A stretch of DNA of 64,000 bases from Caenorhabditis remanei. Lineage: Eukaryota; Nematoda; Chromadorea; Rhabditida; Rhabditidae. The translations under genes were made by a program, and so were the position numbers. The DNA is taken from assembly GCF_010183535.1 (NCBI RefSeq), contig NC_071331.1, positions 9,486,001 through 9,550,000 on the forward strand. The letters run 5' to 3'. Below are positions 1,293 through 53,160 of the stretch, in pieces (within the stretch, counting starts at the first letter, position 1; every line of letters starts with the position of its first letter). Below the pieces are notes generated by a model. That model was given only the letters and a program-made list of their open reading frames with translations. It was not told the origin of the DNA and searched no databases.

Positions 1293-1909
1293 GTCAGAGA
1301 CAAAAATTTGTGAAATGTCCGGTTTCTAAACGTCTGGTTTCAAAACACACTGAAAACTTTTTCACAAAATACAACTTCCCGGGAAAAGTATCGATACGTC
1401 TCGAAAGTATCGAGAAAGTATCGAGAAATCACTCAAAATTTCTCGAGAAAGTATCGATACTTTCGAGACGTCTCGAGAAAGTTTCGAGAAATTTTCGAGA
1501 AATTTTTCCCGGGAAATTTCTCGATAATTTCTCGAAATGGGCTAGTATCGAGAAAATCATATCGATACTTACACACTGAGTACATGCTTAGAGTTATTAG
1601 CTAAACCAAATATAAAACCACTGTCATGTATTGTAAGAAACCGTAATACCTTTATTATCGTACATAAAACATCCAGATCGTCTAAAAGCACGCTGACCAT
1701 TCTGTTAAAACCCTATTTCCAAATTATAACGTGAAAACGTGTTCATCGATAATTATTGCTGGACTTCCTGTTTTTTCTTGTTGCTCCAACGGGCCCAGTT
1801 TATCCCCCCGTCTAAAATTTTGAATGTTGTTCATTTGGAAAAGCAGCAGCTGTATGAAAACCTTTAAATAACATGAGTAATGAATTCAAAAATGTGCGGA
1901 TTCTCTTAT

Positions 1910-1978
1910 CTGTTTCAATCTTTCTATTTGAATCTGCGAAGAAACATTTAAAGTTAGTCTTGAATTACTATAAAATTA
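1910..1978 (+). ncRNA. Candidate 21U-RNA gene
   Basis: Core CTGTTTCA at 1910-1917. TAGT places the first U at 1958, 41 nt after the core; predicted RNA starts UCUUGAAUUA. The matching place in duplication copy B has lost the core. Confidence 0.55.
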
Positions 1979-2270
1979 AGGTAATTCAGTCAAAAAAAGT
2001 AATGATCATAGAATTAGTTGGTTGTCAGTTTCAAGTTTTTCACGAACTGTACTTTAAAACAGCTCCTAGAGATTGCTGCTTCTAAAAGTAATCTGTCAAA
2101 ATTACACTGTATCATTGAACCTTTCTTTTCCTTTTATTCCAAGTATCGGTAATAGACACAAACTGTTTTTTGTAAAACTTTACCTTCTTTTCCCCTCATC
2201 TCACATTCATCTCCACTCCCCCAACATTATTCTCTCAAAGTTTGTTTGAATTTTAGAATTATGTAGTTGC

Positions 2271-2337
2271 CAGTTTCAAATTCTTTCCATTTTCGCGGAA
2301 CTGTAATTCGAAGCAATGCTTCGATTTCTTCATCATC
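2271..2337 (+). ncRNA. Candidate 21U-RNA gene, variant core
   Basis: Core CAGTTTCA at 2271-2278; CAAT puts the start at 2317, 39 nt on. Its duplicate at 25759-25825 keeps core, CAAT and the 39-nt spacing while the 21-nt bodies differ. Confidence 0.5.
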
Positions 2338-2504
2338 TGGCTCTTTCTCTTACACTTTAACGTTGTTTCATAACATTCTACTTCTAGAATTTTCCCAGTT
2401 ACTTTGTATCTTAAGTAGGTTTCTTTATTCTTTCATTCTCTTAGCCATTTCTCAAATCATTTTCTTGTAAATCCATCCTTCCTCAGCTCCACTCCTCCCA
2501 ACAA

Positions 2505-2669
2505 TTTCTTGTAGTTTGACCCCCTCTCATTCCCCGACTCTCTTTCGTTGACTCCTAATGTTTTCCTCCGATTTTCGCGCCTCTTCCCCCTCTTTATACT
2601 ACCAAATGAAATATTAGATGATGAAGGGAAAAACGAGCGGTCTCTACTCAAATAGACACCCACTTTGTG
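2505..2669. other. Highly conserved island between duplication arms
   Basis: This segment is almost identical to 25995-26160, including about 90 bp with no visible difference, while flanking duplicated sequence has drifted clearly more. On the minus strand it has a TATAAAG box followed by purine-rich sequence, and an open frame shared by both copies. It could be a promoter, an exon or a structured RNA; I do not recognise it. Confidence 0.5.
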
Positions 2670-4038
2670 GGGAAAAGTTGTTCTTTTGTGTTCTGTTTAA
2701 ATGCTAGAGGGATCTAACCTTCAGATTTTTCCCACTTTTTTGAACTGTTTGAGACAGCGAATATTTCAGGAATTCTGGTTTTCACTTACTTTAATTAGTC
2801 TGGAAGAATTTTCCAACATTAAAGTTCTAGAATGATGATTAGATCTTGATTCATTTGTAAATTTTACAATTGTTCACCGTTTCAAAAAGTTATCGTCACT
2901 CAACAAAATATCTGACTTGAGTTGTTCCATTGATGGTGGTATCATCAAACTCTAATTTGAATAAACAAACTCAATTTTTGGGAAAAAAATTCTCAAAACT
3001 GATTTTTGGTAGGTTTCAAAGGTTTTTGAATAATATATTTGAGAAAAAATTGATAGTTTAAATCCGGGCCGACCGGACCGAAACGACCCAGGGCAAAACC
3101 AGGTCTGGAATAAAAACATCGTAGTAGATTCATCCAAGGTTAAACGAAATTTGACCATTAGAATAGCGCTTCGTTTATGATGCGGAAAACTGAAATGGAG
3201 TATTGGAAACTGTAATAAATTCTCCGTTTCAATCAATTTATAAGATATTTTTTCTGATAATGGTGTCGAAAACAAACACCGAACACATGAAGTCCGTTAT
3301 ATAAAGACGCAATGAAATGGAAACTTATTGTTTTTTTTTATTAGAAAGGAACCAAGTATCACTTCATGCTATCACTTTTCAGAGAGAATTCAGAACTGTT
3401 GAAAATAATACATTTCCCTCTAAAAATTCTCGGTTGCTTATTAGTTTCATATTTTTAGGTTCGCTCATTTAGATGTTGTGTCTTACCTCAGATTTCATCT
3501 ATTTCTTGTCGAAAAAACACTATTTCAAGTTTTAGAGAATGACCTGCCAAATCATTTATAGCTTTCCGATATTCTGTCAGATATTTTTCTGTTTAAGTTA
3601 GTTTTGAAGTTTTTGGAATTGATACGTTGACCGTTAATCCTTTCCGAGGGTTTTTTTTATCACAACTGTTTAATTTTAATAATGAAATTTCACCAATCTA
3701 ATATTTTCTTCATACACCAGCTAAAGCTGACGCACCTGCGGCGCGTTTAGAGACTCTCTCATTTTATATAAGAACACTCATTCGGCACTCATTATAGTGG
3801 AATATTTAACGATTTTGTAGTAAAACATGTACATTTTTAAATTCATAGAAACAGTTCTATGTGAGCTTTCTTTCTGTTCAAACCCACAATCAAGTTTTAC
3901 AAGTTGAAGTGATTTTTAGTGTATTTTTAGCCAATAATTGATTCAATAACATGCAAAATCTGTTACAAAGGATGATGGCAGCAGAAAACTGAGTAATCTT
4001 GACATTTCTAAGAAATTGGTCTACTTTCCAAGCTTTTA

Positions 4039-4104
4039 CAGTTTCAACGCATTTACATAGAGATGGGATATAGGTAACAACGGTAAGTGATCGGAACTCT
4101 GTGC
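4039..4104 (+). ncRNA. Candidate 21U-RNA gene, variant core
   Basis: Core CAGTTTCA at 4039-4046. CGGT gives a start at 4084, 38 nt downstream. Confidence 0.4.
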
Positions 4105-4406
4105 TACATACATTAAACGAAAAACGCAAAGGAAACAAATCGTGATGCAAAAAATAGTAAGAATTCAGCGACTGGCATAAAAATTTGGAGGATCTGCAGT
4201 TCATTTTTATACTGGTTGCGGGCAAGGTTAGACACTTTGAATCAAACAGTTTAGAGGAACTAGGTGGTTAAAAAAAGGCCAATGAAGGGCATAATTTCCA
4301 ATGAATCAGAAATTTCATGCGTCTATTCGTTTTGTGCTTTGTGAGAAACTGCAAAGAACAGTTAACTCGAATTTAGCGCTTCTGGCAGAAGCTTCGATTC
4401 TCTACT

Positions 4407-4471
4407 CTGTTTCAGTTCATCTTCTTATTGGATAAAAGCGTAGCTCTTGATTCCGATTTCTACATTTACGT
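4407..4471 (+). ncRNA. Candidate 21U-RNA gene, short spacing
   Basis: Exact core CTGTTTCA at 4407-4414. The best YRNT is TGAT with start 4451, 37 nt on, one base shorter than the range shared by the other loci. Confidence 0.4.
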
Positions 4472-5248
4472 GTGTGTTTTTTGGGAGAAACTGCAAAGAA
4501 CCTATGGAAAAACTCGGAAAAAAACTAAAAAGAAATTAGAAAACGTCTGCGGATAGCGGATACTCTTTCGGAAAAGGCGTCGAGGAGAAACAGACAACAA
4601 CAACAGCAAAGAAAACAACAAACTTTAATGCCATTGACTCTTTGTGTTACTACAAATCTCTCTCTCTCTCCCAATCACAACTTGTCAGTGTATCTATTCC
4701 TCTCTTTCCTAGCCACCAAACAACTTAATCCTCCTCTTTATATTCTCTCTTCTCAATCCGAGAGACCTCATTACAATGTCAATCTCGTCTTATGTACATT
4801 ACATTACTCCTTCTCTTTTTATATCTGAAAATGGATGATCTTTCTCTCTTGATTTATATTCCTAAGAGTTTGATCTTGACATGGAAAAATTCTTTGAAGA
4901 AATGTTCACCGCAAATGTGACTGAGATTAGGTCTGTGAAAAAACTTAAATTTTAAAAATTGTTCGAAACATAACTTTTTTGGAAACTTTCCATATTTCGG
5001 TTTGTCTACTTCTAGTGTTTTCTTTTCTGCTTACTTGAATTGTGAAATTCTTCTGTTTCTAAACTTTGATGTTCACGAGTTTATGCACTGAAAATTTGAA
5101 AAAGACGGAAAAAATAGTATTGGTTCATCCCCCAAAATTTTGTTTTTTGAAACAATTCAGTTTCGAGCGTATTGTATCAAGTATTAATTGATCATTACAT
5201 GGGATACTGTTTCAATTATCTGACACGTATGAAGCTGAAACATTTGAT

Positions 5249-5678
5249 GGCTCCGCGACAATTCGCAACTGCGACGATTCGCAACTCACGTAGGTTTCGC
5301 AACTGCGACACTTCGCAACTGCGACATTCCGCAACTACGACATTTCGCAACCACGACGTTTCGCAACCACTGGGCATTTGCATATTTGGGTCAGCTAAAA
5401 ATGTTGAGTGTACCAAAAGGTTTGGGAACATATTTGGAAACAACTAAATAGAAGAAAAAGTTGTCTGACCCATTTTTAGACAAAACTAGGTCAAACTATT
5501 GCTAGTTCAATGGTTGCGAAACGTCGTAGTTGCGAAATGTCGCAGTTGCGAAACGTCGTAGTTGCGGAATGTCGCAGTTGCGAAATGAAAAGTTGCAAAA
5601 TGTCGCAGTTGCGAAACCTACGTGAGTTGCGAAATGTCGCAGTTGCGGAATGTCGCAGTTGCGAATTGTCGCGGAGCC
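5249..5678. mobile_element. hAT-type MITE with TTCGCAACTGCGAC repeats
   Basis: The terminal inverted repeats begin GGCTCCGCGACAATTCGCAA and are flanked by a perfect 8-bp duplication CATTTGAT (5241-5248 and 5679-5686). Both arms are built from many copies of a 15-bp unit, TTCGCAACTGCGACA, direct on the left and inverted on the right, around a unique centre near 5370-5510. It encodes no protein. Confidence 0.85.
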
Positions 5679-6568
5679 CATTTGATAGTCAATACATGAT
5701 TTTCGACAAATCCAAACTCTCAGTTTCTGTTTCCAATGGTCCACATAAAACGTCTAAAAACGTGGAACTTTAGTTTTTGCGGAAAATCAGTTTCGATATA
5801 GTTAAACCACATTTCCAACAACGCATTCAATGTGCACAATGCCTTATTCACCGAAGCTCTGAAAAAAACTGTTAATGAAAAATCGAGAGACGCCTATTCT
5901 CGATCACAAATTCCGAGGATCCATATCTTTCTGAGCTGGTTCCTATAGATAGTTCGTCGATTCAGTTAGTCAAAACAACATTCAATCTACTATGAACTCA
6001 TTCCAAAAATCCAAAATCTCGAATAAAAAAATTCACCGTCCCCTCAATCGATCTTTCCAAAATCCTTGTTTTGAAACTTCTGTTTTATCTGCATCATATA
6101 AATTTTCAGAGCGATGATTAGCTAATCCGATCTGATTCTGCCTTGAGTGAGCAAAATTTCACATTTACCGAAACTCAGTAAAAATTCCGATGAAAAATTC
6201 AGTGACACCTGTCTTGACCGCAGTTTCTGAGCTTGAAACTGTAGGTAGTTCGTCGATTCAGATAGTCAAATCCTCATCCAGCTTACTTTGAACTGATTCC
6301 AAAAACCCAACATCCTGAACACATCCCCCTCCCTTTTTTCTCCATTCTCCCAAAACTTGACCACTCCTTCCTCCCCCTTTTCTTTCCAACAAAAACTACA
6401 CAATGGCATCAAAATATCTTATTTTTGGCTCCTTCCTCTTCTGACTCCGATTGTTCTCTGTCTTCTTCTTTTCTTTTCTCTTGGCTCGGAGGCTCCCTTG
6501 GATACGCTTCCGTGCGTTTTGTTCCTCCCGTTTTCCAGAATTCATTTTACACACTTTGTAGTATATTT

Positions 6569-7123: not shown

Positions 7124-7189
7124 TATTAAATAATTTGACACCGATTACTATACCTTTCATTGACTGTGAATACCTTCAGCCTGAAACTG
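7124..7189 (-). ncRNA. Candidate 21U-RNA gene, variant core
   Basis: TGAAACTG at 7182-7189 is the CAGTTTCA core on the minus strand; the start base is 7144 (TAAT on the minus strand), spacing 38. Confidence 0.4.
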
Positions 7190-7768: not shown

Positions 7769-7834
7769 AATCTGCTTAATCCGATTCCAGCAAAGCGACA
7801 ACTCTCATATGTTTTTGAAAATGTCTTGAAACTG
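7769..7834 (-). ncRNA. Candidate 21U-RNA gene, variant core
   Basis: Minus-strand core CAGTTTCA at 7827-7834 with start 7789 (TGCT), spacing 38. The paralogous locus at 45962-46028 has the same core and a valid start. Confidence 0.45.
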
Positions 7835-7925
7835 CAAATTTTTGAAGTTTATAGATTTCGGTTATTTTTTCACAAGATCATATTCATCTACTGTTTCACT
7901 TCCAACTTTTACACGATCACTGTTT
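7800..7925. repeat. Paralogue of the 45.5/46.0-kb tandem block
   Basis: The segment from the minus-strand core at 7827 to ACACGATCA aligns with 45515-45620 and 46010-46110. All three contain a C-AAATTTTTGAA-TTT-AGATT-CGGTT backbone and a TACTNTTTCACTTCC word that is an intact CTGTTTCA in two of the three. Confidence 0.65.
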
Positions 7926-7956
7926 TCTCTTCTGTTTTTTTCTTCCCGACATTTTT
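7891..7956 (+). ncRNA. Candidate 21U-RNA gene
   Basis: Core CTGTTTCA at 7891-7898; TGTT with start 7936, spacing 38. The paralogue at 46085 is intact, and the one near 45585 has decayed to CTTTTTCA. Confidence 0.55.
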
Positions 7957-8132: not shown

Positions 8133-8200
8133 CTGTTTCACACAACTTTTTTGTTTTTCACTTTTTCCACCCAATCCAGTCCACCCAATCCCTTTACGAC
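8133..8200 (+). ncRNA. Candidate 21U-RNA gene
   Basis: Core CTGTTTCA at 8133-8140; CAGT with start 8180, spacing 40; RNA would begin UCCACCCAAU. Confidence 0.58.
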
Positions 8201-9886: not shown

Positions 9887-11419
9887 TACGTTATGAAATT
9901 CTGATTTTATGGAGAAGAGGTTTTCAGAAAAAAATTCTCGAAGCACTAAAAGTTATCTCCGGATTTTACAATCTACTAAACTGCAATATTCGAAACTATA
10001 TTTATGTCTGTGTAAGCAATATTATTTCTCGCAAGGAATATTATTTCAAAAAAAATCTGAAACTTTGAAAAGAAGTCTCGGAAACCGCAAGTATTAAAAC
10101 TTTTCATTTCCCGAAGATGTTTCCAAAAAATCTCCAGAAACCCCATCGATTAATTTATTTTCGGTTTCAGAAATCTACTGAATAATAACTTCTCAAACTA
10201 TACTGATCCAGATCCTCTAGTTTCTAATCAAACTTTAGATTAAAACGCGTCACAAGGCGCGCCAGCCGTGACCTCTCTTCTCTAAATTTGTTCAATTCCT
10301 AATCCCTTCTCACTCTCAATCTCCGTCCCATCCCAAAAGCACCATTCTTCTGCTCCAATCATGTTGCTGCTCCGAATCAAAAGAGTCAATATTTGTCATT
10401 TCTTTCCGCCTGTCTACTCATCCTTTTCACCCCTATTTTCAATGTCATTAGGAGTCAATGTGACACACACACAGACCCCCACTAAAAGAAACAATTTCGT
10501 TTCGTATAGTTCTTCTTCTTTTTTATTCAAATCGAAGAAAAACATTATTTTTGTTTGGAAACAAAAATTTGAATATTCCCTTTTTTGTTATGTTTTTTTC
10601 TTTGCTATTGTGAGCGATCACAAGGTTTCTTTTTCTTTCTCTTTTCGATGCTTTTCTGCTTCTTCCCCGTGACTGTACACACATGATGGAAAGCCACGTC
10701 AATTTGAAGAAAATATTTTCTGTTTTTGTCCAGTTTTGATCTCAAGAGTCTAGTTTCATGTGTTTTGATATAGGGAGAGTTCATCAGTAGAGCAAACTTT
10801 CATCAAATCGGATTTCCAATGGAGTGTAGAACTTTTTCTAAACTTGACGATGAGTTGAATTTCAAATTTTTGTATTTTGAATTGCTAAAAAAATCGAATC
10901 CGACAAATCCGTGTTCAGTCCGTTGAAAATCTGAAACGATAATTGTCGTCACACGTCAATATAATTGTTATCAAGGCGAATGCAATTACAGATAACATTT
11001 AACAATTACGGCTTCATGAAGCTGTTAAAAATGTTCCAATAGTCATACATTTCAATAGTGCTAGATTTTTAAGTACTAGATTTGTCCTTTATTGTTACAG
11101 TCATGATAGTTCATGAAGTTCGAAACCATGTGTTTCCATTTTCATCTAGTTAGAATTCTTCGAAAATTGGTCATTTTTTCTTTGAAACTTTATAAGCTCA
11201 AATCTACTGAATCTAAATTTTTTACAGTAGAATATCAAACTTTGGTGAAACGGAACTCCTTAAATTATTTTTATTCTTATTTCTCCCAATTTTTTGTAAC
11301 TTTCAACCGAAAATATGGCTTTTTTTCAATCAATTCAATGTTACCTCTATCAGTACACAACTCCCAGTTCATAATTTATCTACCTTTGTGACTTTTGTGA
11401 AACTTCAATTCATATTCAA

Positions 11420-11486
11420 ATTTTACCCGAAATTCGATGAGCATATTTCTGTTATACAGTGTCGACAAAGCCTGGTCATGAAACAG
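11420..11486 (-). ncRNA. Candidate 21U-RNA gene
   Basis: TGAAACAG at 11479-11486 (minus-strand CTGTTTCA); start 11440 (TGCT), spacing 39. In the duplicate near 46678 the core is changed to ATGTTTCA. Confidence 0.58.
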
Positions 11487-11926
11487 CAGGGAACATTTAC
11501 CTTGTTCTATTCGATTTTAATTCCTATACTATTATTCCACCATCTTTCATGGAATTCAGTTTTTTGTAAAGTTAAAATACTTAGTGATGATTGAACCTTG
11601 AAAAAATATTGTATGTCTCATTTTTACGTTCAACATATCACTTTCTGCAGTTTATTCTGTTTTGTAACTGTTAGATAGCGCTATTACATTACTTGAAACC
11701 ATCATTAGTATGTGAAGTAAATTTTTCTTTTTTAAAATCATTAAAATCATTTTCAATAATCAAGGAAATTTGAGTTTACACTTTCTGTAAGCGCTTTCCT
11801 TGAATACTGAAATAATGAAATAATGAAACGGAATCTTTTCGACCAGGTTGATTATTCTTTTATCCACTAACTCACTCATTTCCTCCTACACGATGTGAAT
11901 CTGATTAAGTTGTAAATGCAACTAGA

Positions 11927-11993
11927 TCAAAACTGACCTAAATTTTATCATACTGTCAGAAAAAGGAAACGCATTATTTTTGAATTGAAACTG
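11927..11993 (-). ncRNA. Candidate 21U-RNA gene, variant core
   Basis: Minus-strand core CAGTTTCA at 11986-11993; start 11947 (TGAT), spacing 39. The duplicate near 48250 lacks the core. Confidence 0.42.
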
Positions 11994-12064
11994 ATTTCGA
12001 TATCCTACAGGTGATGCAGTAAATTATTTTGTCGATAGTTCACCTATTTGTTTTGTTATTTTAG

Positions 12065-12132
12065 AAAACTTAAAAGTTTTGTCAATTGTTCAAAACACTC
12101 ATCGACATTAAGATATCTGTTTCATGAAACTG
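12065..12132 (-). ncRNA. Candidate 21U-RNA gene, half of a bidirectional pair
   Basis: Minus-strand core CAGTTTCA at 12125-12132, directly abutting the plus-strand core at 12117-12124; start 12085 (CAAT), spacing 40. Core, CAAT and spacing are all preserved in the duplicate at 48326-48393. Confidence 0.5.
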
Positions 12133-12183
12133 GTAAATACATCACTTTTACTATCATTTTACTTTTTCTTTCGCTCCTTCAAC
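12117..12183 (+). ncRNA. Candidate 21U-RNA gene, half of a bidirectional pair
   Basis: Core CTGTTTCA at 12117-12124; TACT with start 12163, spacing 39. The duplicate has GTGTTTCA. Confidence 0.55.
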
Positions 12184-12356
12184 TTTAAAGAGATTTTGGT
12201 TCCTAATATCCCTCAACGATAGTATATCAAGAGGTAACCAGTTATTACTAGGAAATCTGCTCGAAAATCTCGGTACCAGACTATACAATTATTTCGATAC
12301 GTATTACTGAGTGGGACTACTACTAAAATAATTCAGCTGACAAGAATAAGCTCTAG

Positions 12357-26346: not shown

Positions 26347-26357
26347 TAATAAATGCT

Positions 26358-32869: not shown

Positions 32870-32879
32870 GATTCTTCAT

Positions 32880-33298: not shown

Positions 33299-33368
33299 CT
33301 GAAAAATTACGATCTGTTTCAAATGCTAAAACTAAAATGTTTCAAATGCTCAAACTAAAAAAACTTAC

Positions 33369-36960: not shown

Positions 36961-37168
36961 CAAGCTTTTACGGTAAAATCAAGAAAGTTAATGGGAAAAT
37001 AGAGCAAGAGGGTGTTTTTGAAGCACTTTGAGGGTCCATAACTTGTTTCTGACTGATTTTCAGAACTACCTCCAAGAGGATTTTCTTTTTTTCTCAAAAT
37101 TCTGAGTCGATTCATACTAAAAAAACAATAACTTTTGTTTTGTTTTTCTACCTTTTAACCGGTGATTT

Positions 37169-37237
37169 CTGTTTCACTGTAATGTTATAGTGACATCAAG
37201 AAACTCAGAAACCCGATTTCGACACTTTTGTTGACCC
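37169..37237 (+). ncRNA. Candidate 21U-RNA gene in SPK array
   Basis: Core CTGTTTCA at 37169-37176; CGAT with start 37217, spacing 41; RNA would begin UUUCGACACU. Confidence 0.5.
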
Positions 37238-37579
37238 TTTCGATGTGGAGACGTGTCGACTTGCCTCTTCGTATCACTGGTATCTGAAATGAGAAGATCG
37301 TTGATGACGTGTATGTACTTTTTCCTGGAAATCAGATGATTTTTCTCGAATTCCCGATCAAAACTACTTCACCAAAGAAGAATTTCTATCCGGTTGGGCC
37401 TAGGCAGACCAGCGTGCCACTCTCTCAATTCATACATTTCTTCCCAAAAAAGGGAGTCCTAGTGGTTCACAAAGTGAATAACTCTAGTTGAGAGTAGTTC
37501 AATTTTTGATTCGATGTTCTAATTTTGTTTCTGTTATTCTTAAAATCGTGATCTTATAAACAATGATACTCTATTTTTT

Positions 37580-38720: not shown

Positions 38721-38820
38721 AGAAAGAGAGGTGTCACGCAAAGAGATCAATTGTCACGGGGGGAAAAAAGGGACTGTTCGGAGTGAAAGTGCGAATCCAA
38801 AATGAATCAAGTATTCGAAC

Positions 38821-39420
38821 TCACCGTTGTTTCTTGTGTTTTCCTTCTAGATGGATTGTTTCATCATAAGACAAAAAATATTCGATACGTCTTGAGCTTG
38901 TTTTTTCAAGTCTTAACTTGTGACCTTCTCCCTTTATTCTGAAAAACGAACTAGATTCTCTTAAGGATATGATGGAAAACTTACTTCTTTTCAAAATCTG
39001 GAGAGCAAGTTGTAGACGTGCAATGTACGAAGAGTGCACGTTCTTCCACAGTCAGCATTTCCATCTTCTCGATGAATGGAGATATTAGGATCCGGAATCT
39101 GAAAACGAAATGAGAAATTGAGATAGCAGAGAGTTGGTAGATAACATACCGGTTTTTCAGATTGTCGTGAGTCGGCATCCAGTTGTTTTCTGCCTTCATT
39201 TTTCTCCAAAAGGAAGTCATTGGTATTATTTTCTTTTCCTTTTTCACTTCTCTTCAAGCCAATTGCATCAATCTCACATCTGATTTCACCGTGAACAGAG
39301 GAGACTTCGTTTCTGAAAAATTACGATCTCGACAAATTTTAAACCTTTTAAAACTGACTGTGTGGCAACAGCAAGAAGCAGCAATCCCAATCTATTCCTT
39401 CATCCCATTGTTGATATTTT
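38821..39420 (-). pseudogene. SPK-domain pseudogene, unit E (most complete)
   Basis: Exon II 39150-39312, intron 39099-39149, exon III 38985-39098 (F-R-I-L-I-S-P-F-I-E-K...V-E-E-R-A-L-F, ending D-F-E-K-K), intron 38939-38984, exon IV 38824-38938 (I-K-G-E-G-H-K...R-R-I-E-Y-F...L-E-G-K-H). Exon IV ends either at a GTGAGT donor or at TGA 38821-38823. The R-I-x-Y...L-E-G-x-H ending is the signature of the SPK domain C-terminus. Exon II has a TGA where related units have TGG (L-A-W), and exon I (about 39345-39420) is frameshifted. The unit is therefore dead as it stands, though all domain exons are present. Confidence 0.68.
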
Positions 39421-39893
39421 GATCAATCCATTTGGAAATGTATATAGTAAAGAATAATTAGAAACGGAGGAACTACTTTAGTTCCTCCTAGAAAATTTAC
39501 TCTTTTTAGTTTTTTGAAAGCCACAAACGCCACGTGTTTCGAAAAACCAAATTTGTTTTCTGGAAGCTTAGGGTCACGTTGAAAACTCATTGAAAATTGA
39601 AATTTGGATTGGAATTGTTTCTTGCGTGTGATTGTTTTATTTTTATTTTTCAGACTACATTCTCAATTTTCGCAATGCTTATGAAGAAAAAAAGAAAACA
39701 TAATTAGAGCGGAAATGAATGAATAAAGAACACTGTGAGAGGGTGTTTTTGAGAACTTTGAGAGATCATAACTTGTTTCAGACTGATTTTCCGACCTACC
39801 TCCAAGAGGATTTTCTTTTCTACTCAAAATTCTGAGTCGATTCATATTAAAACTCATCACTTTTCTTTTACATCTCTACCTCTTTGGTGATTA

Positions 39894-39961
39894 CTGTTTC
39901 AATGTTCTTTCATAAAGACACAATGGAAAACTCACCTTAGTTCGTATGATAAGAATTATTC
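39894..39961 (+). ncRNA. Candidate 21U-RNA gene in SPK array
   Basis: Core CTGTTTCA at 39894-39901; TAGT with start 39941, spacing 40; RNA would begin UUCGUAUGAU. It is paralogous to the locus at 32803: same flank, related body. Confidence 0.55.
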
Positions 39962-40285
39962 GATTCTTCTGGATTTCGTTAGTTCCCATTTATACTTGGT
40001 GTCCCTACAGGTTGTCACGTCTTGGGGTCCCGTTGTTTTCCTCCTTCATTCTTCTCCAAAAGGAAGTCATATGGAGTATCTTCTTTTCCTTTTTCACTTC
40101 TCTCCAAGCTAGCTGCATAATGCGTACATCTGATTTTACCGTGAATAGAGGAGACTTTGTTTCTGAAAAATTACGATCTCGACAAATTTTAAACCTTTTA
40201 GAACTGACTCTTTGGCAACAACATGAATCAGCAATCCCAATCAATTCCTTCATCCATTTGTTCGTATTTATTTAGATCCATTATA
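39935..40285 (-). pseudogene. SPK-domain pseudogene, unit F
   Basis: Exon I starts M-D-L-N-K-Y-E-Q-M-D-E-G-I-D at about 40276 and then hits a stop. Exon II is intact (T-K-S-P-L-F-T-V-K-S-D-V-R-I-M-Q-L-A-W-R to R-D-N-L). Exon III is deleted and the sequence joins directly to an exon IV-like piece. Confidence 0.55.
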
Positions 40286-40574
40286 GGAGGAAAAGAATAA
40301 AGTCAAGAATGATTAGAAAAAGAGAAACTTTTAGTTTCTTCGAAAGTATTTCTTTTTTTTGCTTAGTTTCACAAGTGAAACAAAGAAATCGTGACTGTTT
40401 CTCATTTGACATTTTTGATTGCTGAGTTCTGCTTATTATTCTCTTGATTATAAATTGCAAAAAAAGCTGATGCTAAAACCAAAGAGTTTATACATAAGTC
40501 CCATCGAAAATCAAGACGATTTCAAAATCAAAAAATATGAAGTAGACAAACAAAATGCTTGGTTGTTTTTTTTT

Positions 40575-40641
40575 CTGTTTCAATAATCACATTTTTGGTG
40601 GTGATTATTTTCAGCAATACTGCTTTGCGGGCAATGAGTTT
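40575..40641 (+). ncRNA. Candidate 21U-RNA gene
   Basis: Core CTGTTTCA at 40575-40582; TACT with start 40621, spacing 39; RNA would begin UGCUUUGCGG. Confidence 0.6.
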
Positions 40642-41179: not shown

Positions 41180-41376
41180 GACTCGTAAAATGGAAAATGA
41201 TGGGCGTGGCTTATTGGCCCTTCTCTCTGTCTATACAACACGTTTTTTGGTTGAAAGAGCCCGACTGGGTTTTGTTTCTTTTTGGTCTTTTTGGTCTATT
41301 TTCAGTTGCGTTAGAGCAGTTTTACCTTTACTTTTTTCTGTTGGAGAAATTAACTTACAAAGAGAAGTCGCTTTGA
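41180..41376 (+). CDS. Possible membrane-protein exon
   Basis: After a good acceptor TTTCTCCCCAG (to 41176), one frame is open to a TGA near 41376 and encodes an aromatic-rich hydrophobic stretch (V-K-W-K-M-M-G-V-A-Y-W-P-F, then W-V-L-F-L-F-G-L-F-G-L-F) that would form one or two membrane helices. A second frame is also open across the region, so coding status is doubtful. No upstream exon was found. Confidence 0.25.
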
Positions 41377-41777
41377 AATTTAGACTCGGATTGTTTTCTA
41401 AATGCTTTTACTGAAACAAAATAAAATATCGTTTTCTGGAAATTTTTACTGTTTTATTTCATTCTTAATTCCTAAATCAACATTTTTCGAATGTTCCATT
41501 TATTTTGAGTTCCTTTAAAATTTATTTTCAAAGTCCATTTTCGTCTTACTTTCTTGAAATCTCAAAAATAGCATCTCCCATGACCTTCTTGTTGTTTAAT
41601 AGCGGTTTCTCATACATCTTACCAAAATTGACTCAAATTTTTGTACTTAAAATACGACGTGAAAAAAACCAATTATCAAACGAATCAAAACACAAGAAAA
41701 ATCATCAGTAGTCGAAACTGTAACAAATTATTTCACGCCAATGTGTAGTCTTATTTTCCATAAGTTTCTATACTTAT

Positions 41778-41844
41778 CTGTTTCAGTTTCCGGATATGTC
41801 TGAAAACAAATAACTGATAATAATAAGTCCTCAAGTTCGCTAGA
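41778..41844 (+). ncRNA. Candidate 21U-RNA gene, tandem copy 1
   Basis: Core CTGTTTCA at 41778-41785; TAAT with start 41824, spacing 39; RNA would begin UAAGUCCUCA. Confidence 0.62.
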
Positions 41845-42443
41845 ATCTGAGTAAATAGTATAATAGATCAAATATCTGTTCATATCAGGAATCTGAACCG
41901 GTAGATGAAAAACCGAGGTGAAGATTTTGTGGACAAAATTTCAGCTTGACATTGATTTTATATTCTATTCTTAGTAGTGTCGGAACAGATTTCCTTTATT
42001 TTCTTTATTTGAGAACATTACCGTTCAGATGTCAATTGATATTTAGGGTAGGATTGTTTTCTAAATGCTTATACTGAAACAAAAACCTTTTTGCAAATTT
42101 TTACTGCTTTAGTTTCTTCTTGATATCTTTTTCACATATTTGAAAATGTTCAGTTTAGAAAATTTCTGTTGAAAGCCCAAAGTGTCAACTTTTGCCGTAC
42201 TTGCATACTTTTTTTTCAGAAATCTTAAAATAGTGTATCCCAAGGCCTCCCAGTTGTTCAATAGCGTGTTCTGTTACATCTTACTAAATAAACTTAATTA
42301 TAATTTTGTATTTCAAATGAATTGAAAAAATATTCAATAAACAAATGATTCAAACCACAAGAATGATAAATTGTCGAAACTGTAACAAATTATTTCTCCT
42401 CAATTCTATGTAGGTCTTATTTTCAACATTTATCTGTATTTAT

Positions 42444-42510
42444 CTGTTTCACTTTCTGGATTTGTCGGAAAATAAATAACTGAAAATAATACTCTCGATC
42501 ATGACAGAAT
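42444..42510 (+). ncRNA. Candidate 21U-RNA gene, tandem copy 2
   Basis: Core CTGTTTCA at 42444-42451; TAAT with start 42490, spacing 39; RNA would begin UACUCUCGAU. Core, start signal and spacing equal those of copy 1, but the body differs. Confidence 0.62.
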
Positions 42511-42900
42511 CTCAGTAACCAGTAAAATAGAAAAAATATCAGTTCATTAACGGTAGATGAAAAACCGAGGTGCAGATTTTGTGGACTTAATCATAATGAT
42601 CCTGAATTCAATTGAACGAAAAGTGCCTTTCTTGTGATAACTTTCTCAAAGTGAAGTTCCAGTGAAAAACTTTTCCTGTGCCATTTCGAACATTTTAGTA
42701 GTTTTTATTGAAAAATGGTTCTTCTTTATGATCGAAAAGTTCTTCTTTATGATCGAACAAAACAAATTTTTACAGTTTTCAAAAGTTGTTCTGTGTCGAA
42801 AAATAAAAATAATATTAATGAGATCTCTCTCTCTAAATATGATGTGTTTTTTGCTAAAAGCGTGCTACTGTCTTTTTAAACACTAAAAACTTGTTTTTTT

Positions 42901-42966
42901 CTGTTTCAATCATTCCAGAATTCTAGTTTGACATTGATTTCATAATCGAGTCCAGAACGACTGGTC
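42901..42966 (+). ncRNA. Candidate 21U-RNA gene
   Basis: Core CTGTTTCA at 42901-42908; TAAT with start 42946, spacing 38; RNA would begin UCGAGUCCAG. Confidence 0.6.
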
Positions 42967-43583: not shown

Positions 43584-43650
43584 AGTCAGAGTCAACAGCG
43601 AGTACCACTAAACATTCAGTTTCACAGAAATTGTAATTAGTATGAAACAG
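43584..43650 (-). ncRNA. Candidate 21U-RNA gene
   Basis: TGAAACAG at 43643-43650; start 43604 (TGGT on minus), spacing 39; RNA would begin UACUCGCUGU. A plus-strand TTGTTTCA abuts it at 43651. Confidence 0.6.
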
Positions 43651-45836: not shown

Positions 45837-45903
45837 AAAACACCAACACCTGCCGAACTATACGTAACTGTACCGTGAATATCAAGAGACTTCCTTGAAA
45901 CAG
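45837..45903 (-). ncRNA. Candidate 21U-RNA gene
   Basis: TGAAACAG at 45896-45903; start 45857 (TAGT on minus), spacing 39; RNA would begin UUCGGCAGGU. The tandem copy near 46455 has lost the core (CGACGAAATAGG). Confidence 0.58.
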
Positions 45904-46084: not shown

Positions 46085-46152
46085 CTGTTTCACTTCCTCT
46101 TTTTACATGATCATAATCTATGTCATTTCAGTAGTTTTTTTTCATGGTATCA
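46085..46152 (+). ncRNA. Candidate 21U-RNA gene
   Basis: Core CTGTTTCA at 46085-46092; CAGT with start 46132, spacing 40. Confidence 0.58.
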
Positions 46153-46999
46153 GGTTCAAACTCTTTTTTTCTGTTCACCATTTCCTCTACTCGAAATCTT
46201 CTCGAACTGTATTCTATTTTCAACACTTTGTGCATCTTCATTAGCCATTTTTTCACGGTCATAATTTATATTAATTCAATACGGCACAACCCTTTTGGTG
46301 CTCAAAATACTCCTCTTCTCTCGAATATTTGAATTGCAATTGTTAATTCTGACTCCAATTTACTGTGCTTTTAAAAATAGTTGTTGGGCTTTTGAGAGCT
46401 AATCCGTGCGGAACTGTACGTTACTATTCCGTGAATATCAATACACCTCGACGAAATAGGAACCAATATCTGGGAAATGATGAAAAAAGTAAAATAAATT
46501 AAACTTGGATGTGTTGGAACTGCAAACATTCGAGCTCTATCAGTTACACAACGCAACTCCCAACTCATAATTAACCTATCTTTGAGACTTTTATGAAACT
46601 TCAAATCATATTCAAACTTTACTCAAAATTCGATAAATCATATTTCTGTTATACAGTGTTGACAAAGCCTGGTCATGAAACATCAGGGAACATGTACCTT
46701 GTTCTATTCAATTTTAATTTCTATACTATTATTCCACCATCTTTCATGGAATTCAATTTTTTGTAAAGTTAAAATACTTAATGATGATTGAACCTTGAAA
46801 GAATACTGTATGTCTCATTGTTACCTTCAAAACATTAAGCACTTTCCAAAGTTTTATTCTGTTTTGTAGCTGTTAGATATAATAAGCACTTTCCTTGAAT
46901 ACTGAAATAATGAAATATTGAAACGGAATCTTTCCGACCAGGTTGATTATTGTTTTTATAAATGCAGAAACCACTACGTATCTCACTCATTTTCTCCTA

Positions 47000-48151
47000 C
47001 AGTAGCGAGCATAAGTGAGTATACCTCCATACATATTCCATTCATATGTATCTCAGCTGAAACAAGTCCGTTTTGCATAAACTTTTTTTCAAAGATAGCT
47101 GAAGTATCCAGTAAAATCGACATAAGTTTTTTGTTTGAGGTGATCAGGTGATTTTTTTGATTATCGATTTTTCCTGATCTTGATTTGAAAATCCGAAAAA
47201 AAAACTTTTTATTTTTGAACTGGACCCTATGATTTTTTGGGTTGGAAATATTTATCAGCGTTCATAAAAACAAAATATGCTGTTAGAATGCTTCTGTGAA
47301 TCTTCATCATCGTGCTACAGCTCTAGAAGTCCAAAGTAGTATGCTTGGCTAAATTGTCATAACTCATCGAAAAATGGTTCAAATTAGTTGAAAATTGCGG
47401 GAAGAGATGCGTAATATGTTTATCAACAATCTTATATTTAAAAATAATAATTTTGAGAAAATTTTTTTTCGAATTTTTTTCACTCGAAAAATTTTGGTTT
47501 CCAACTTTTGCCCAATTTCTCATGTTTTTTGATTATGAAACAGTAACAATTTGCAAATTTGAGTTGAATTTTACATGAAACATCAAATTTAAATTTTCAT
47601 TAATTCAATTACAGCGGTTTCATAATCCAAAAACATGAAAAATTGATCAAAAGTTGGAAACCAAAATTTTTCGAGTGAAAAAAATTCGAAAAAATTTTTT
47701 TTCTAAAATTTTTATTTTTTTAAATACGATTGTTGATAAATATATTACAAATCTTTTCCCGCAATTTTCAACTAATTTGAACCATTTTTCAATGAGTTAT
47801 GACGATTTAGCCAAGCATACCACTTTGGACTTCTGGAGCTGCAGCACGATGATGAAGATTCACAGAAGCATTCTAACAGCATATTTTGTTTTTATAAACG
47901 CTGCTGAATATTTCCAACCCAAAAAATCATAGGGTCCAGTTCAAAAATAAAAAGTTTTTTTCGGATTTTCAAATCAAGATCAGGAAAAATCGATAATCTT
48001 AAAAATCAGCTGATCACCTCAAACAAAAAACTTATGTCGATTTAACTGGATACTTCAGCTATCTTTGAAAAAAAAATTTATGCAAAACGGACTTGTTTCA
48101 GCTGAGATACATATGAAAGTATGGAGGTATACTCACTTATGCTCGCTACTG
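47000..48151. mobile_element. Tc1/mariner-type long palindrome
   Basis: Ends CAGTAGCGAGCATAAGTGAG and its inverse are flanked by TA (46998-46999, 48152-48153). The arms are near-perfect inverted repeats of about 550 bp around a centre near 47560. No transposase is encoded. The equivalent position in copy A (about 11885) is uninterrupted, so insertion followed the duplication. Confidence 0.92.
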
Positions 48152-48325
48152 TACATGGTGTGAATCAGATTAAGTTGTAAATGTAACTAGATCAAAACTG
48201 AGACCTGAATGTTATCATACTGTCTGGAAAACGGACAAGAATTATTTTTGAATTACACTGATTTTGATATTCTACTGGTGATACAGTAAATTTTTTCGTT
48301 TAGAGTTCTCGTTTTGATATTTTAG

Positions 48326-48393
48326 GAAACATCGAAGTGTTGCCAATTGTTCAAAACAATTACTTAATGGTGGATAAGTGTTTCATGAAACTG
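48326..48393 (-). ncRNA. Candidate 21U-RNA gene, variant core
   Basis: Minus-strand core CAGTTTCA at 48386-48393; start 48346 (CAAT), spacing 40; duplicate of 12065-12132 with the same geometry. Confidence 0.48.
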
Positions 48394-48763
48394 GGAAATA
48401 CATCAGTTACTTTTTCTCTCGCTCCGGCAAATTTAAAGAGATTTTGGTTCCTAACATCGATCAACCATTGTCAGATAGGCAGTTATTACTAGGAAACCTG
48501 CTCGAAAATCTCGACGCCAGACCGTACAATTATTTCGATACGTATTACTGAGAGAGGGACTACTAAAATATTTCAGCTGACAAGAATAAGCTCTCACTGA
48601 AACGGTGTTTTTAAATTTCTCAACCGAACTTTTTACCTTTTGGATTTTCAATAGATTTCGGAACAATAGATGTTCTGTTGATTTCTGGTCCGTGGCCATT
48701 GAAAGTGAGCCCGGACTCGGAGACGGTATGACAATTTTCACAAGAAAACAAAAATCAGACCTA

Positions 48764-49559: not shown

Positions 49560-49625
49560 CAGTCTTTTAATTCAATAGGAATGCCGGTCAATTCAAGAAA
49601 CATGAATAAGCCATTCGTGAAACAG
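49560..49625 (-). ncRNA. Candidate 21U-RNA gene
   Basis: TGAAACAG at 49618-49625; start 49580 (CATT on minus), spacing 38; RNA would begin UCCUAUUGAA. Confidence 0.55.
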
Positions 49626-49748: not shown

Positions 49749-49817
49749 AGTCAAACAAATCGATACGAATTAACTGGAAATGTTTTAATCAGTACGAATC
49801 AGACCTCCATGAAACAG
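49749..49817 (-). ncRNA. Candidate 21U-RNA gene
   Basis: TGAAACAG at 49810-49817; start 49769 (TAAT on minus), spacing 41; RNA would begin UUCGUAUCGA. Confidence 0.57.
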
Positions 49818-50030: not shown

Positions 50031-50097
50031 TGAGACCTATAACTCAGAAGATTAGAATGGTGATCTCTCTCTAACATTAACACAATTCATGAAACAG
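50031..50097 (-). ncRNA. Candidate 21U-RNA gene
   Basis: TGAAACAG at 50090-50097; start 50051 (TAAT on minus), spacing 39; RNA would begin UCUUCUGAGU. Confidence 0.6.
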
Positions 50098-50421: not shown

Positions 50422-50487
50422 TCAAACCCAGACGATGGCCCAGCAAACAGAATACGACTCAACTAATACTGATGTCTCATGAAACAG
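50422..50487 (-). ncRNA. Candidate 21U-RNA gene
   Basis: TGAAACAG at 50480-50487; start 50442 (TGCT on minus), spacing 38; RNA would begin UGGGCCAUCG. A GTGTTTCA on the plus strand overlaps at 50487-50494. Confidence 0.6.
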
Positions 50488-50731
50488 TGTTTCATGTGTC
50501 AAGTTATCCCTTATTACTCAAATTTACGGTATTTGGGCTCATGGGCTCTGAGAATGATTCTCCGAAAATTTCCTAGGTGATAATCAGAATATATCAGAAC
50601 TCTCAAACATTATCCCAATTTCATGAAACATGAATCCTTTGTGAGCTCGTCTTAGTCTCCAACCAGTATTCTTTAAAGGAAAATTCAGTGTTTCGAGTGA
50701 TTCTCATTTGAGCGCACATCATAACTTTCAT

Positions 50732-51022
50732 CAGACTTGTCAAAAATCGGGCCGGCCCGGCTCGGCTCGGATCAAAAATGTGTACTCATTTTGTAACACA
50801 ATTTTCTGAACATTTTCGAAAGTTTAGAATAAATAGCTTAAATTATCATACCTATTTACCTTTTTATTAAGTTTTGAATTTTATTCGAAAACTATTCTTT
50901 TTTTGAAAAAATTTCCAAAAAAAACATCAAAATTTCAAAAAATGTTTCAAAACGTTCCGAGCGGGCCGGGTAGAGAATATTTTTGATTTCGGCCCGGCCC
51001 GGCCCTGCCCGTGACAAGTCTG
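50732..51022. mobile_element. hAT-type MITE, GGCCCGGCCC family, aged
   Basis: Ends CAGACTTGTCA / TGACAAGTCTG, GGCCCGG arms and an AT-rich centre. Flanking 8-mers match only 5 of 8, so the target duplication has decayed. Confidence 0.7.
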
Positions 51023-51369
51023 ACACTCACGATCCACTGAGATTACAGAATGATCTCAAAACCACACCACTCTTGCGTTATTTTTTTACCATTGTTCAAG
51101 TGGTCGGCAAACTCAAACTAGAAACACAAACTTTCCACGTCATGAGTGCGCAGAACTTTCGAAAAAGCAAACATTGCAAGCGCGCTTTACTGGCCTCCGA
51201 TAAAGTACGGTGGAGCGTGTTTTCTTCGAAAGATCAATGAAATCACCATTTTTCCCTCATTACTTCTCTCTTTCCATTTTCATTTTCTAATCTTTCTCAC
51301 TGCGCCTCCCTCGTATCTTCTAAAATCAAATCCCACTCCTTATTTCTCTCAACATGTTTCAATTTCCAG

Positions 51370-52751
51370 AAAACCAGATATCATCGATGATGAACCAACA
51401 GGACCAACCACTCCATTCGATATCAATAATTTGGAGACATGTGTTCCGGAAGGGTCTACAAAAGAACCGTACATGCCGAAACCGGTAACAAAACCTAAAC
51501 CAGGGCAACACAACTATTCCGACGATTCCACTGATGGATATTCTGGAGGAACAGGTTACACAGACTTCTCCGACTTCACAGATGTCCCTGGAGGGTCTAG
51601 TGAGCTTCCGATGGAAAGTATCCCACCGGTTCATTGGACGAAATCAACACCAAGAGATTTCACGATTAGTCAGAAGATTGATGAGAATAGTGCAGGCTAT
51701 CAACAGTTGTTGCACATGTTGGAGGTTAGTAAAACAATTAAAAGCTTTAATTTTGTTAATGAATATTAATTACAATATGCTAATTAATTAATTAAACTAC
51801 TTAGAAACCGTAAAAAATTTATGTTTTAGTTGTTTGAGGTGTAATGCACCACGTGTACACCATAGTAAATAACTAGATTTTGTCATGGAGTCTAGTAACT
51901 CCAATGTGCAAATTAAATTATTAATTAATCTATTCTAACCTTGTTGATCATTAAAACCATTATTACAGGACCTTGGACACCGTCGCAAAGACGACATCAT
52001 CGAAAAACAACAGACTGAATTCTATGTCAGCAGAGCTTCAAGTCTTATGGATTCTATAGATAATGTAAGAAAACATAAAATACAAATACAAAATTCCACT
52101 GCTCAACTATGCATATATTGACTTTACTGAAACACAAATTATTGTTTTACCGACTTTTTATCTATTATCATATTTTATTTCACACTAATATATTCAATTC
52201 AATTGTTCGATTTCAGTCCTTCACAAACGTGGCGATTTCGAATATCACAATGGCACAGGAGTACATCAAAGGATTGTTGGCAGCCGCTTCTGTTTCAGTG
52301 AGTTTTAGAGACGCTATTTAGACAGAATCAACTAGCTTATTTGAAAATTGTTTGCGAATAAGCTACACAGGAAACTGTAAATGTTTTTAATGTCTTAATG
52401 CGAGACATCATTACTTTACTTTTTCAGTTTCCTCGAATCGATTTAGCGCAATTTTTTACAATCTAATAATTCTTGATATTCCCTCAACTTTTATTCCAGG
52501 TCCGCACCGCCTACTTTGAAATAAAATCACTGACAAGTCAACCAAGTTTCTATTATATTCCAAAACGACAGAGATATCTGATGGTGAATAAAATAGTTAC
52601 TGATATGAGTGCAACTGGTCAAACGGAGATGATGTCATTGAATAAGAAGGCGAAGGCATACTGTCGGACTGCAAATGTGGACACTCCACCGTATTCATTG
52701 GGCAATTTATTCGGAAATATGTTGGCGAATGGGGCTGTTTTGTCGAAATAA
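51370..52751 (+). CDS. Uncharacterised nematode protein, four 3' exons
   Basis: Exons 51370-51724, 51969-52064, 52217-52297 and 52500-52751 (TAA) join in phase 0 with good sites: TTTCCAG, GTTAGT, TTACAG, GTAAGA, TTTCAG, GTGAGT, TTCCAG. The first exon encodes a Pro/Asp/Gly/Thr-rich low-complexity segment (K-P-D-I-I-D-D-E-P, T-D-G-Y-S-G-G-T-G-Y, D-F-S-D-F). The later exons encode a helical region of about 140 residues (L-L-H-M-L-E-D-L, A-Q-E-Y-I-K-G-L-L, Y-I-P-K-R-Q-R-Y). Exon 51370 starts with the last base of a split codon, so at least one 5' exon lies upstream; I could not place it. No known domain is recognised. This is the most gene-like host locus in the window. Confidence 0.7.
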
Positions 52752-53160
52752 ATGAATCGTTGCAAACGTGTTTCATTATTTTAAGAAGTTGTGAAGATTT
52801 TGGTTTTTAGATTGCAGTTTCAAAAAATGCTGAAAGTGCTGAAAATATCATAATTGGTCGAATTAGCACGTTACAACAATCTAAAGTGGAAAGTTGCTTT
52901 ATCTGTTCTTTATAGACTGGATAATGAATAAATTGATGCTTTCGAAGAACAACTAAATTTGTTGCTTTCCCTTTACTCAAAGCGTCCAATCAAAACAGAA
53001 CAACACATTAAATTCTATCACAGTTATATGAAACAGTACTTAGAATAGTGTATTGACAACACTTCTTTTCCCCATGTTACTTTATATGGTCCATCTAGGC
53101 GGGCCTTTAATTTTGAAAAAAACTTTCATAAAACAAATACTCCCAAAAAGCTACAGAAAT
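52752..53160. other. 3' flank of the four-exon gene
   Basis: AT-rich, without a clear AATAAA close to the stop. It contains one minus-strand 21U candidate and runs into satellite array 2. Confidence 0.6.
52969..53036 (-). ncRNA. Candidate 21U-RNA gene
   Basis: TGAAACAG at 53029-53036; start 52989 (TGAT on minus), spacing 40; RNA would begin UUGGACGCUU. Confidence 0.58.

Follow-up and report, generated by a model that had tools for sequence, protein, structure and literature searches.

Where new piRNA genes come from in worms, and whether selection acts on their guides at all, are two open questions that duplicated genes allow to be tested from a genome sequence. Such duplicates are found in the 64,000 nucleotides analysed here (the window), which are positions 9,486,001-9,550,000 of chromosome IV of Caenorhabditis remanei PX506. 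In the accessible text of two reports, an undiscovered mechanism may generate new piRNA genes, with guides under little selection (PMC9683057, 2022), and guides are presumed to be constrained only by selection against mRNA silencing (PMC3597512). The anatomy and clustering of the predicted genes, their duplication and the unequal divergence of the copies are observed directly. The window very probably belongs to a chromosome IV 21U cluster of tiny autonomous units, copied by local duplication, in which the core is kept and guides diverge about twice as much as flanks.

The exact core CTGTTTCA was recounted and occurs 38 times (22 plus, 16 minus) between 1910 and 53036, identical to the number in the preliminary description, and 0 times in the terminal satellite (from ~53.3 kb). 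Roughly 2 had been expected by chance in 50 kb on both strands. This figure matches a Markov model of order 0 (2.01 for both strands of 1579-53036) and is too low for orders 1-3, which give 3.45, 5.19 and 6.50; higher orders, which increasingly include the core itself, give 10.6, 18.1 and 29.7 (order 6). Among 840 letter permutations of the core (mean count 2.2), the core ranks first with 38. The whole genome (130.5 Mb) contains 19,000 cores against 6,781 for the reversed pattern. Genome-wide density is thus 1.5 per 10 kb, well below the 7.4 per 10 kb of the window, and the equal density that had been named as evidence against a cluster is absent. Within its own cluster (5.9 per 10 kb in stretches L005-L020), the density of the window is not unusual.

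A YRNT lies 34-37 nt past the core in 31 of the 38 exact cores (27% expected). The spacing peaks at 35 both in the window (14/38) and in 16 other chromosome stretches (29/94), so the earlier placement of the core about 40 nt before YRNT is borne out as a fixed distance. Variant cores CAGTTTCA, ATGTTTCA and CCGTTTCA likewise have YRNT at the proper spacing; 38 is therefore right for exact cores and too low for genes, of which about 70 are predicted. A bipartite promoter matrix was trained on L005-L020, with the window left out. At a score of at least 14 it yielded 76 sites in 1579-53036 (without 15701-17700); ten dinucleotide shuffles averaged 2.8 such sites, and the reversed sequence had 1. 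A further element of the predicted genes is an A/T pair, 18-19 nt downstream of the first base of the core. An AT-rich, low-melting pausing signal of type I genes would lie downstream; over 421 sites, mean GC (means only) was 0.386 in bases 2-7 of the guide, 0.310 in 22-31 and 0.360 in 47-60. The cluster slice and predicted 21U genes with the exact core, or CAGTTTCA where given, are as follows (T, base from which the guide would start).

1579..53036, no strand: cluster slice, 99 predicted sites at score at least 12
1910..1978, plus: exact core at 1910, T 1958
2271..2337, plus: CAGTTTCA, T 2317; in a family whose 5 predicted sites all differ in guide
7124..7189, minus: CAGTTTCA, T 7144; L031 copy with flank identity 92%, guide differences 7/20
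7891..7956, plus: exact core, T 7936; copy at 46085
8133..8200, plus: exact core, T 8180
11420..11486, minus: exact core, T 11440; L037 copy with flank identity 97% (insertions uncounted), guide differences 11/20
12117..12183, plus: exact core, T 12163; inside duplicated segment
19636..19704, minus: exact core, T 19656
19714..19780, minus: exact core, T 19734
20513..20581, minus: exact core, T 20533
22306..22374, minus: exact core, T 22326
22864..22930, plus: exact core, T 22910; in a family whose 5 sites all differ in guide
23064..23130, plus: exact core, T 23110
25260..25325, plus: exact core, T 25305
25759..25825, plus: CAGTTTCA, T 25805; copy of gene at 2271, guide differs
26280..26346, minus: exact core, T 26300
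26861..26927, minus: exact core, T 26881
26947..27013, plus: exact core, T 26993
32802..32869, plus: exact core, T 32849; copy at 39894
35955..36022, plus: exact core, T 36002
37169..37237, plus: exact core, T 37217
39894..39961, plus: exact core, T 39941; copy of 32802
40575..40641, plus: exact core, T 40621
41778..41844, plus: exact core, T 41824; copy at 42444, core identical, guide differs
42444..42510, plus: exact core, T 42490; copy of 41778
42901..42966, plus: exact core, T 42946
43584..43650, minus: exact core, T 43604
45837..45903, minus: exact core, T 45857
46085..46152, plus: exact core, T 46132; copy of 7891
49560..49625, minus: exact core, T 49580
49749..49817, minus: exact core, T 49769
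50031..50097, minus: exact core, T 50051
50422..50487, minus: exact core, T 50442
52969..53036, minus: exact core, T 52989

Two intervals are devoid of predicted sites (score at least 12): 12.2-18.9 kb, occupied by a gag-like reading frame and a 235-bp satellite, and 28.2-32.8 kb. The motif GTTTCATG (22 window copies) was considered as a second promoter type and rejected: across 47 copies, YRNT has no clear peak. Its palindrome copies at 12119 and 48380 fall inside duplicated block C (below). GTTTCA pairs, convergent and divergent, had no clear preferred spacing. Type II 21U-RNAs, which are defined without the Ruby motif, were ruled out as the motif is present.

The chromosome-wide picture was based on sampled stretches and the listed places of three extended core patterns. 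Chromosome IV (20% of the genome) contains 30 of the 45 places of one of these, a 13-mer, of which 14 fall between 0.6 and 11.8 Mb, 15 between 19.6 and 24.2 Mb and a single one at 15.7 Mb; the other two patterns (at least 100 places each) lie mainly on chromosome IV among the matches listed. This concentration, in two blocks plus one isolated place, agrees with the proposed membership of a large cluster and supports assignment of the window to a multi-megabase chromosome IV cluster of predicted type I 21U-RNA (piRNA) genes. Clusters of this type are already known, and the window is an ordinary slice of one. Its mode of evolution, duplication with fast guides, is less expected.

Duplicated DNA was located by aligning the window to itself and by retrieving copies from elsewhere.

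1683..6126, plus: duplicated block A (patchy), direct copy 23580-28165; part 2250-2687 has further copies at chromosome IV 9.45-9.64 Mb
23580..28165, plus: block A, second copy (patchy)
7800..7919, plus: duplicated block B, direct copies 45511-45614 and 45994-46113
11345..12354, plus: duplicated block C, direct copy 46535-48594; part 11887-12354 has further copies at chromosome IV 9.43-9.65 Mb
46535..48594, plus: block C, second copy
32297..40359, plus: block D, internal direct repeats, multi-copy; weak SPK/DUF545-like exons on minus strand
41295..42586, plus: block E, tandem duplication of ~0.65 kb; 3 predicted 21U sites in first copy, 2 in second

A Pfam search of 19 different reading frames gave only matches under the Pfam cut-offs. 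Within the window, 106 of 110 directed alignments are same-strand. Duplicated DNA in the window makes up 31.5% of unmasked bases and contains 42 of the 99 predicted sites, and for 72 of the 99 the core region is copied in the window or in copies retrieved elsewhere. Five segments were searched for copies, and three have few, local copies only. Local, mostly direct duplication thus multiplies the predicted 21U genes.

Within-window pairs were too few for a study of divergence (25 sites spanning the cassette; guide/flank ratio 1.49, 1.29-1.75), so copies from elsewhere were added. Alignments with at least 99% identity, or not covering 10 nt before the core to ~30 nt after T, were excluded. Across 106 families, divergence is 29% over bases 2-21 of the guide versus ~15% in flanks, and the guide exceeds the flanks in 86 (sign test, 6e-11). 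Relative to flanks, identity by family was 6.0 points higher in the core (CI 3.4 to 8.5) and 14.8 points lower in the guide (CI -17.7 to -12.3). The fast block started at +2 in 269/300 bootstraps and ended at +18 to +22 in 243/300; at ~17-21 nt, with its first base directly after the predicted T, it resembles a mature 21U-RNA. By a single metric, the guide/flank ratio was 2.13 (1.98-2.28; 171/202) for real sites and 1.18 (1.09-1.29; 202/415) for pseudo-sites, so alignment bias makes up part of the effect. Predicted guides thus diverge about twice as much as flanks after duplication while the core is retained, which is ~1.6 to 1.8-fold above the pseudo-site baseline.

The ratio was 1.89 around the window and equally 1.89 in L001-L025. 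By promoter class it ranged from 1.68 (weakest) to 2.25 (strongest), not monotonically and with overlapping intervals, and was 1.24 for low-score GTTTCA sites. Conservation of the YRT bases over all pairs was not above that of flanks (+0.4 points, CI -4.1 to 4.2). In 52 alignments with flanks of at least 92% identity, the guide was unchanged in 22 and had one change in 10. In 29 ungapped pairs, rates were nearly equal (guide 0.031, downstream 0.025, upstream 0.032), the selection of these pairs by total identity of at least 90% including the guide itself. The ungapped-only set (72/370 alignments) placed the 3' edge at +21 in 140/200 bootstraps and gave no sharp 5' edge (start -20 in 63 and -1 in 32 of 200).

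Several other origins of these patterns were weighed. The cores might make no RNA and simply accompany an amplified repeat or reflect base composition; this would suit the large share of sites in copied DNA, but is very improbable given the fixed YRNT spacing, the better preservation of the core than of flanks in copies and the near absence of sites from shuffled and reversed sequence; the few, local copies of three of the five searched segments are also unlike a dispersed repeat. The Ruby motif is described, in the accessible part of PMC6436959, as a derivative of snRNA promoter elements, and the cores might accordingly be SNAPc elements of snRNA or SL RNA genes. An Rfam scan of the window, however, found 0 families at the gathering score, and ARAGORN found 0 tRNA, leaving this idea scarcely credible. 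It is improbable, if less so, that guides are neutral and appear fast only because constraint on the cluster DNA around them, or its homogenisation by gene conversion, keeps that DNA alike. Conversion is possible between local duplicates, and flanks were the one yardstick of the comparison; yet flank identity at real sites (0.851) is close to that of pseudo-sites placed randomly in aligned DNA (0.867), so nearly all aligned DNA would need to be constrained.

A more serious possibility, though still an unlikely one, is a mutational hot spot, in which Pol II initiation, pausing or R-loops raise mutation just past the start. Gaps are also raised in the fast block (0.05-0.12 per position versus ~0.02 outside), guide identity stays 11.8 points under that of flanks where the partner has lost its core, and spacer bases +12 to +17 from the first base of the core, which are untranscribed, are fast too (0.17-0.24), a feature unexplained by selection on the guide. 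From the precursor start and length in the literature, however, one would expect a block from -2 to ~+26, whereas the one observed runs from +2 to ~+18-+22, and divergence at position -1 is only at spacer level (0.17). Selection on the mature guide is the preferred cause of the fast guides.

A gene unit would consist of the Ruby core (CTGTTTCA or a near variant), the A/T pair, the YRNT initiator and a 21-nt guide starting from its T. From this anatomy we infer transcription, a 21-nt product, its processing and PRG-1 binding. By analogy with C. elegans, USTC factors (PRDE-1, SNPC-4, TOFU-4/5) would recruit Pol II, which would start 2 nt before T to give a capped precursor of ~28 nt, and trimming of this would yield the PRG-1-bound 21U-RNA. 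PRG-1 is present in all examined Rhabditina except one, according to the accessible text of PMC6436959. Local direct duplication would copy the cassettes, after which the guide would change and the core would stay. With selection on the mature guide as the preferred cause, the cluster might go further and diversify guides: a force confined to the mature 21 nt would rewrite them in duplicated cassettes, through substitutions and small indels, at a rate ~1.6 to 1.8 times that of the surrounding DNA over baseline, with the core kept. For this stronger proposal we consider the case evenly balanced. Positive selection, favouring new specificities or avoidance of self-targeting, could be the force; mutation directed at the block is the less likely candidate. 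If true, the cluster would be comparable to the variable regions of immune-receptor families, with the variation carried by single 21-nt RNAs. A guide rate above the flank rate follows from neither published view, as given in the accessible text of PMC9683057 and PMC3597512. If the fast guides hold, the edges of the fast block would show where mature small RNAs lie, with no need for RNA data.

C. remanei 21U-RNAs are known through small-RNA sequencing (PMC6468775, accessible text). A locus-level map of this stretch was not found in the accessible literature on them, and a search of titles and abstract openings, mostly outside subscription literature, found no report of guide acceleration or worm piRNA gene duplication. 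The accessible text of PMC3597512 and PMC6436959 describes C. elegans type I clusters that have in common with the window the 8-nt core, spacing, YR initiator and T start, as well as the chromosome IV location, two blocks and predicted autonomous units. The left block seems longer in C. remanei (0.6-1.3 to ~11.8 Mb, from listed places) than in C. elegans, with its two 3-Mb regions. C. briggsae clusters share the Ruby motif, YR dinucleotide, chromosome IV location and poorly conserved guides (PMC9683057). The accessible text of that paper reports little selective pressure on guides, whereas guides in the C. remanei duplicates are faster than flanks; it leaves the origin of new genes open for C. 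briggsae, and the C. remanei copies show duplication as a source.

The exact core CTGTTTCA occurred at 22 plus-strand and 16 minus-strand positions in the window, as counted in the preliminary description, with the first copy at 1910 and the end of the last at 53036. The expectation of about 2 copies given there was reproduced at Markov order 0 (2.0 for 1579-53036, both strands) and not at order 3 (6.5). Orders 4, 5 and 6 gave 10.6, 18.1 and 29.7 for the same interval and strands, these models increasingly containing the core itself. The core was the commonest of all 840 permutations of its letters (38 copies versus a mean of 2.2), and the whole genome (130.5 Mb, 186 contigs) contained 19,000 copies versus 6,781 of the backward pattern. 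In this genome the window occupies positions 9,486,001-9,550,000 of chromosome IV (C4).

YRNT peaked 34-37 nt after exact cores of the window and of sampled genomic stretches L005-L020, with a maximum at 35 nt (14/38 and 29/94 cores, respectively) and about 8% at other distances. The set spacing described previously was recovered, 31 of the 38 window cores having a YRNT at 34-37 nt (chance 0.273 each). An A/T pair was visible in the composition profile 18-19 nt past the first base of the core. YRNT was present at the exact-core spacing after the variant cores CAGTTTCA, ATGTTTCA and CCGTTTCA too. GTTTCATG was over-represented, with 22 copies in the window versus 2 in low-density stretches totalling 50 kb, and its copies showed no clear YRNT peak.

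For a bipartite matrix, 165 sites of L005-L020 served as the training set, the window sequence being excluded. At score 14, the matrix found 76 sites in the window; ten dinucleotide shuffles averaged 2.8, the reversed window sequence had 1 and the satellite end had none. The same score yielded 216 sites in 160 kb of L005-L020 (the matrix's own training stretches) and 30 in 40 kb of L001-L004 at the chromosome end. At score 12, there were 99 sites in the whole window, 31 with an exact core, and 5 in 25 kb of other chromosomes (five 5-kb stretches from five chromosomes). Because of these counts in window, control and cluster stretches, the window is predicted to hold roughly 70 21U genes at a density ordinary for the cluster; the dozens of clustered genes proposed earlier were retained as predictions, their number being about 70 rather than 38. 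No predicted sites were found at 12.2-18.9 kb. Other elements of the window were as follows.

12825-15488, plus strand: 887-codon open frame of higher GC, between predicted 21U genes and 235-bp satellite; Retrotrans_gag match below the Pfam cut-off (20.2 versus 24.1 bits)
15783-17663 and 53274-64000: satellite arrays of 53-bp units, also showing longer periods (~235, 318, 340 and 395 bp); one satellite family includes both the internal array (15.8 kb) and the terminal one
18538-18915, minus strand: weak Transposase_1 (partial DDE) match, E 0.038, below the Pfam cut-off
32297-40359: internal multi-copy repeats, weak SPK/DUF545-like exons (minus strand) and a dispersed ~130-bp element occurring as inverted pairs on several chromosomes

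A second copy inside the window was present for 15,220 of 48,317 unmasked bases (E 1e-10 or better), and 106/110 directed alignments within the window were on the same strand. This duplicated DNA contained 42 of the 99 predicted cores; when fetched copies L031-L042 were included, the core was covered by a copy at 72/99 sites (E 1e-8 or better). Five segments were searched against the genome, four picked as already duplicated inside the window and one (22800-23180) not. Matches on chromosome IV (C4) were as follows.

2250-2687: 9 further matches, some partial, plus strand, C4 9.43-9.65 Mb
11887-12354: 4 further matches, some partial, plus strand, C4 9.43-9.65 Mb
22800-23180: 5 further matches, some partial, plus strand, C4 9.43-9.65 Mb
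41700-41934: one adjoining copy; at 8.998 Mb, three matches in inverted orientation
32622-32913: 292-bp copy in inverted orientation, identical in sequence, at C4:9345526-9345817, ~173 kb away

The last copy is a sign of recent inverted duplication; part of this segment also occurs in a dispersed element with copies on each of the six chromosomes.

To measure divergence, 551 predicted sites (window, L001-L025, L031-L042) were aligned to their own copies, yielding 370 alignments spanning the cassette (promoter and guide) from 202 sites in 99 families. Identity by family was 0.858 upstream, 0.911 in the core, 0.826 in the spacer, 0.855 in YRT, 0.703 in guide bases 2-21, 0.811 in the next ten bases and 0.869 downstream. 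Differences from flank identity were +0.060 for the core (CI 0.034 to 0.085), +0.004 for YRT (CI -0.041 to 0.042) and -0.148 for the guide (CI -0.177 to -0.123). Pseudo-sites placed at random in aligned DNA gave 0.845 (guide), 0.848 (core) and 0.867 (flank), with guide minus flank at -0.022 (CI -0.033 to -0.012). Among unique pairs (242, 106 families), guides differed at 0.293 versus ~0.15 in flanks (ratio 1.93, 1.75-2.12), the guide being higher in 86/106 families. A per-site metric gave 2.13 (1.98-2.28) for real sites, with guide above flank in 171/202, and 1.18 (1.09-1.29) for pseudo-sites 80-260 bp away (202/415); from these two ratios, net guide acceleration was about 1.6 to 1.8-fold.

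Substitution ratios from weakest to strongest promoter score were 1.68, 1.83, 1.97, 1.91, 1.87 and 2.25, with overlapping intervals, and low-scoring GTTTCA sites gave 1.24 (1.11-1.38). The window together with its local copies gave a ratio of 1.89, as did L001-L025 sites, and window-against-window pairs gave 1.49 (1.29-1.75). In some individual alignments with flanks 92-97% identical, substitutions and small indels had altered 7 to 11 of the 20 guide positions; of the 76 alignments whose flanks were at least 90% identical, 26 had four or more guide changes. Each of the five members of the 2271 family had a guide of its own. The five members of the 22864 family also had five different guides, two of them differing by one base. 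Among the 52 alignments with at least 92% flank identity, the guide was unchanged in 22, had one change in 10 and nine or more in 5, so guides may change in bursts.

The best-fitting elevated block ran from +2 to +19, starting at +2 in 269/300 bootstraps and ending at +18 to +22 in 243/300. Selection and mutation as causes of fast guides are not separated for certain by these sequence data. The block edges speak more for selection acting on the mature RNA, because the precursor as published begins 2 nt upstream and is ~28 nt long (PMC6436959). The ungapped subset (72/370) kept the 3' edge at +21 and had no sharp 5' edge; among 29 ungapped pairs with high identity overall, the rates in guide (0.031), downstream (0.025) and upstream (0.032) sequence did not clearly differ. 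Six spacer bases, +12 to +17 of the core, were also fast (0.17-0.24 versus ~0.14 in flanks), and core +18 and +19 were conserved in predicted sites (divergence 0.07-0.08). The guide effect persisted where the partner lacked a core (-0.118, CI -0.168 to -0.069). Uncollapsed haplotypes could be among the copies; against this, the C. remanei PX506 strain is inbred (PMC10461856), and flanks differed by >10% in 174/226 alignments in which both promoters were kept.

C4 was sampled in 10-kb stretches, one per 0.3 Mb. Stretches at 0.3-1.2 Mb had 0-3 exact cores each; those at 1.5-6.0 Mb had 3-10, apart from L019 (0). In the full list for one extended core pattern, 30/45 places were on C4 (14 at 0.6-11.8 Mb, 1 at 15.7 Mb, 15 at 19.6-24.2 Mb). 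Two further patterns each had 69 places on C4 among the 100 matches listed, which reached 10.3 and 10.9 Mb of C4. In 5-kb samples further right, there were 1 exact core and 3 score-12 sites at 12.5 Mb, 2 and 6 at 18.5 Mb, and no exact cores at 15.5, 21.5 and 24.5 Mb. With right-hand sampling this thin (5 kb each), the right block has provisional limits. On C1, 9/14 places of one extended pattern, among the matches listed, lay at 8.88-11.72 Mb; this was not repeated by other patterns (2/13, among the matches listed, and 0/4), and a stretch at C1 10.0 Mb (L026) contained no predicted sites. In C. briggsae, 9.8-12.0 Mb of chromosome I is described as a piRNA cluster (PMC9683057).

No report of guides outpacing flanks in duplicates was found in a literature search of titles and abstract openings. 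21U-RNAs are already known from C. remanei (PMC6468775), and PMC9683057 describes little selective pressure on guide sequences and raises the question of where new piRNA genes come from. The class to which the window belongs is that of the type I 21U-RNA cluster of C. elegans (PMC3597512; PMC6436959), and C. briggsae likewise has such a cluster (PMC9683057).
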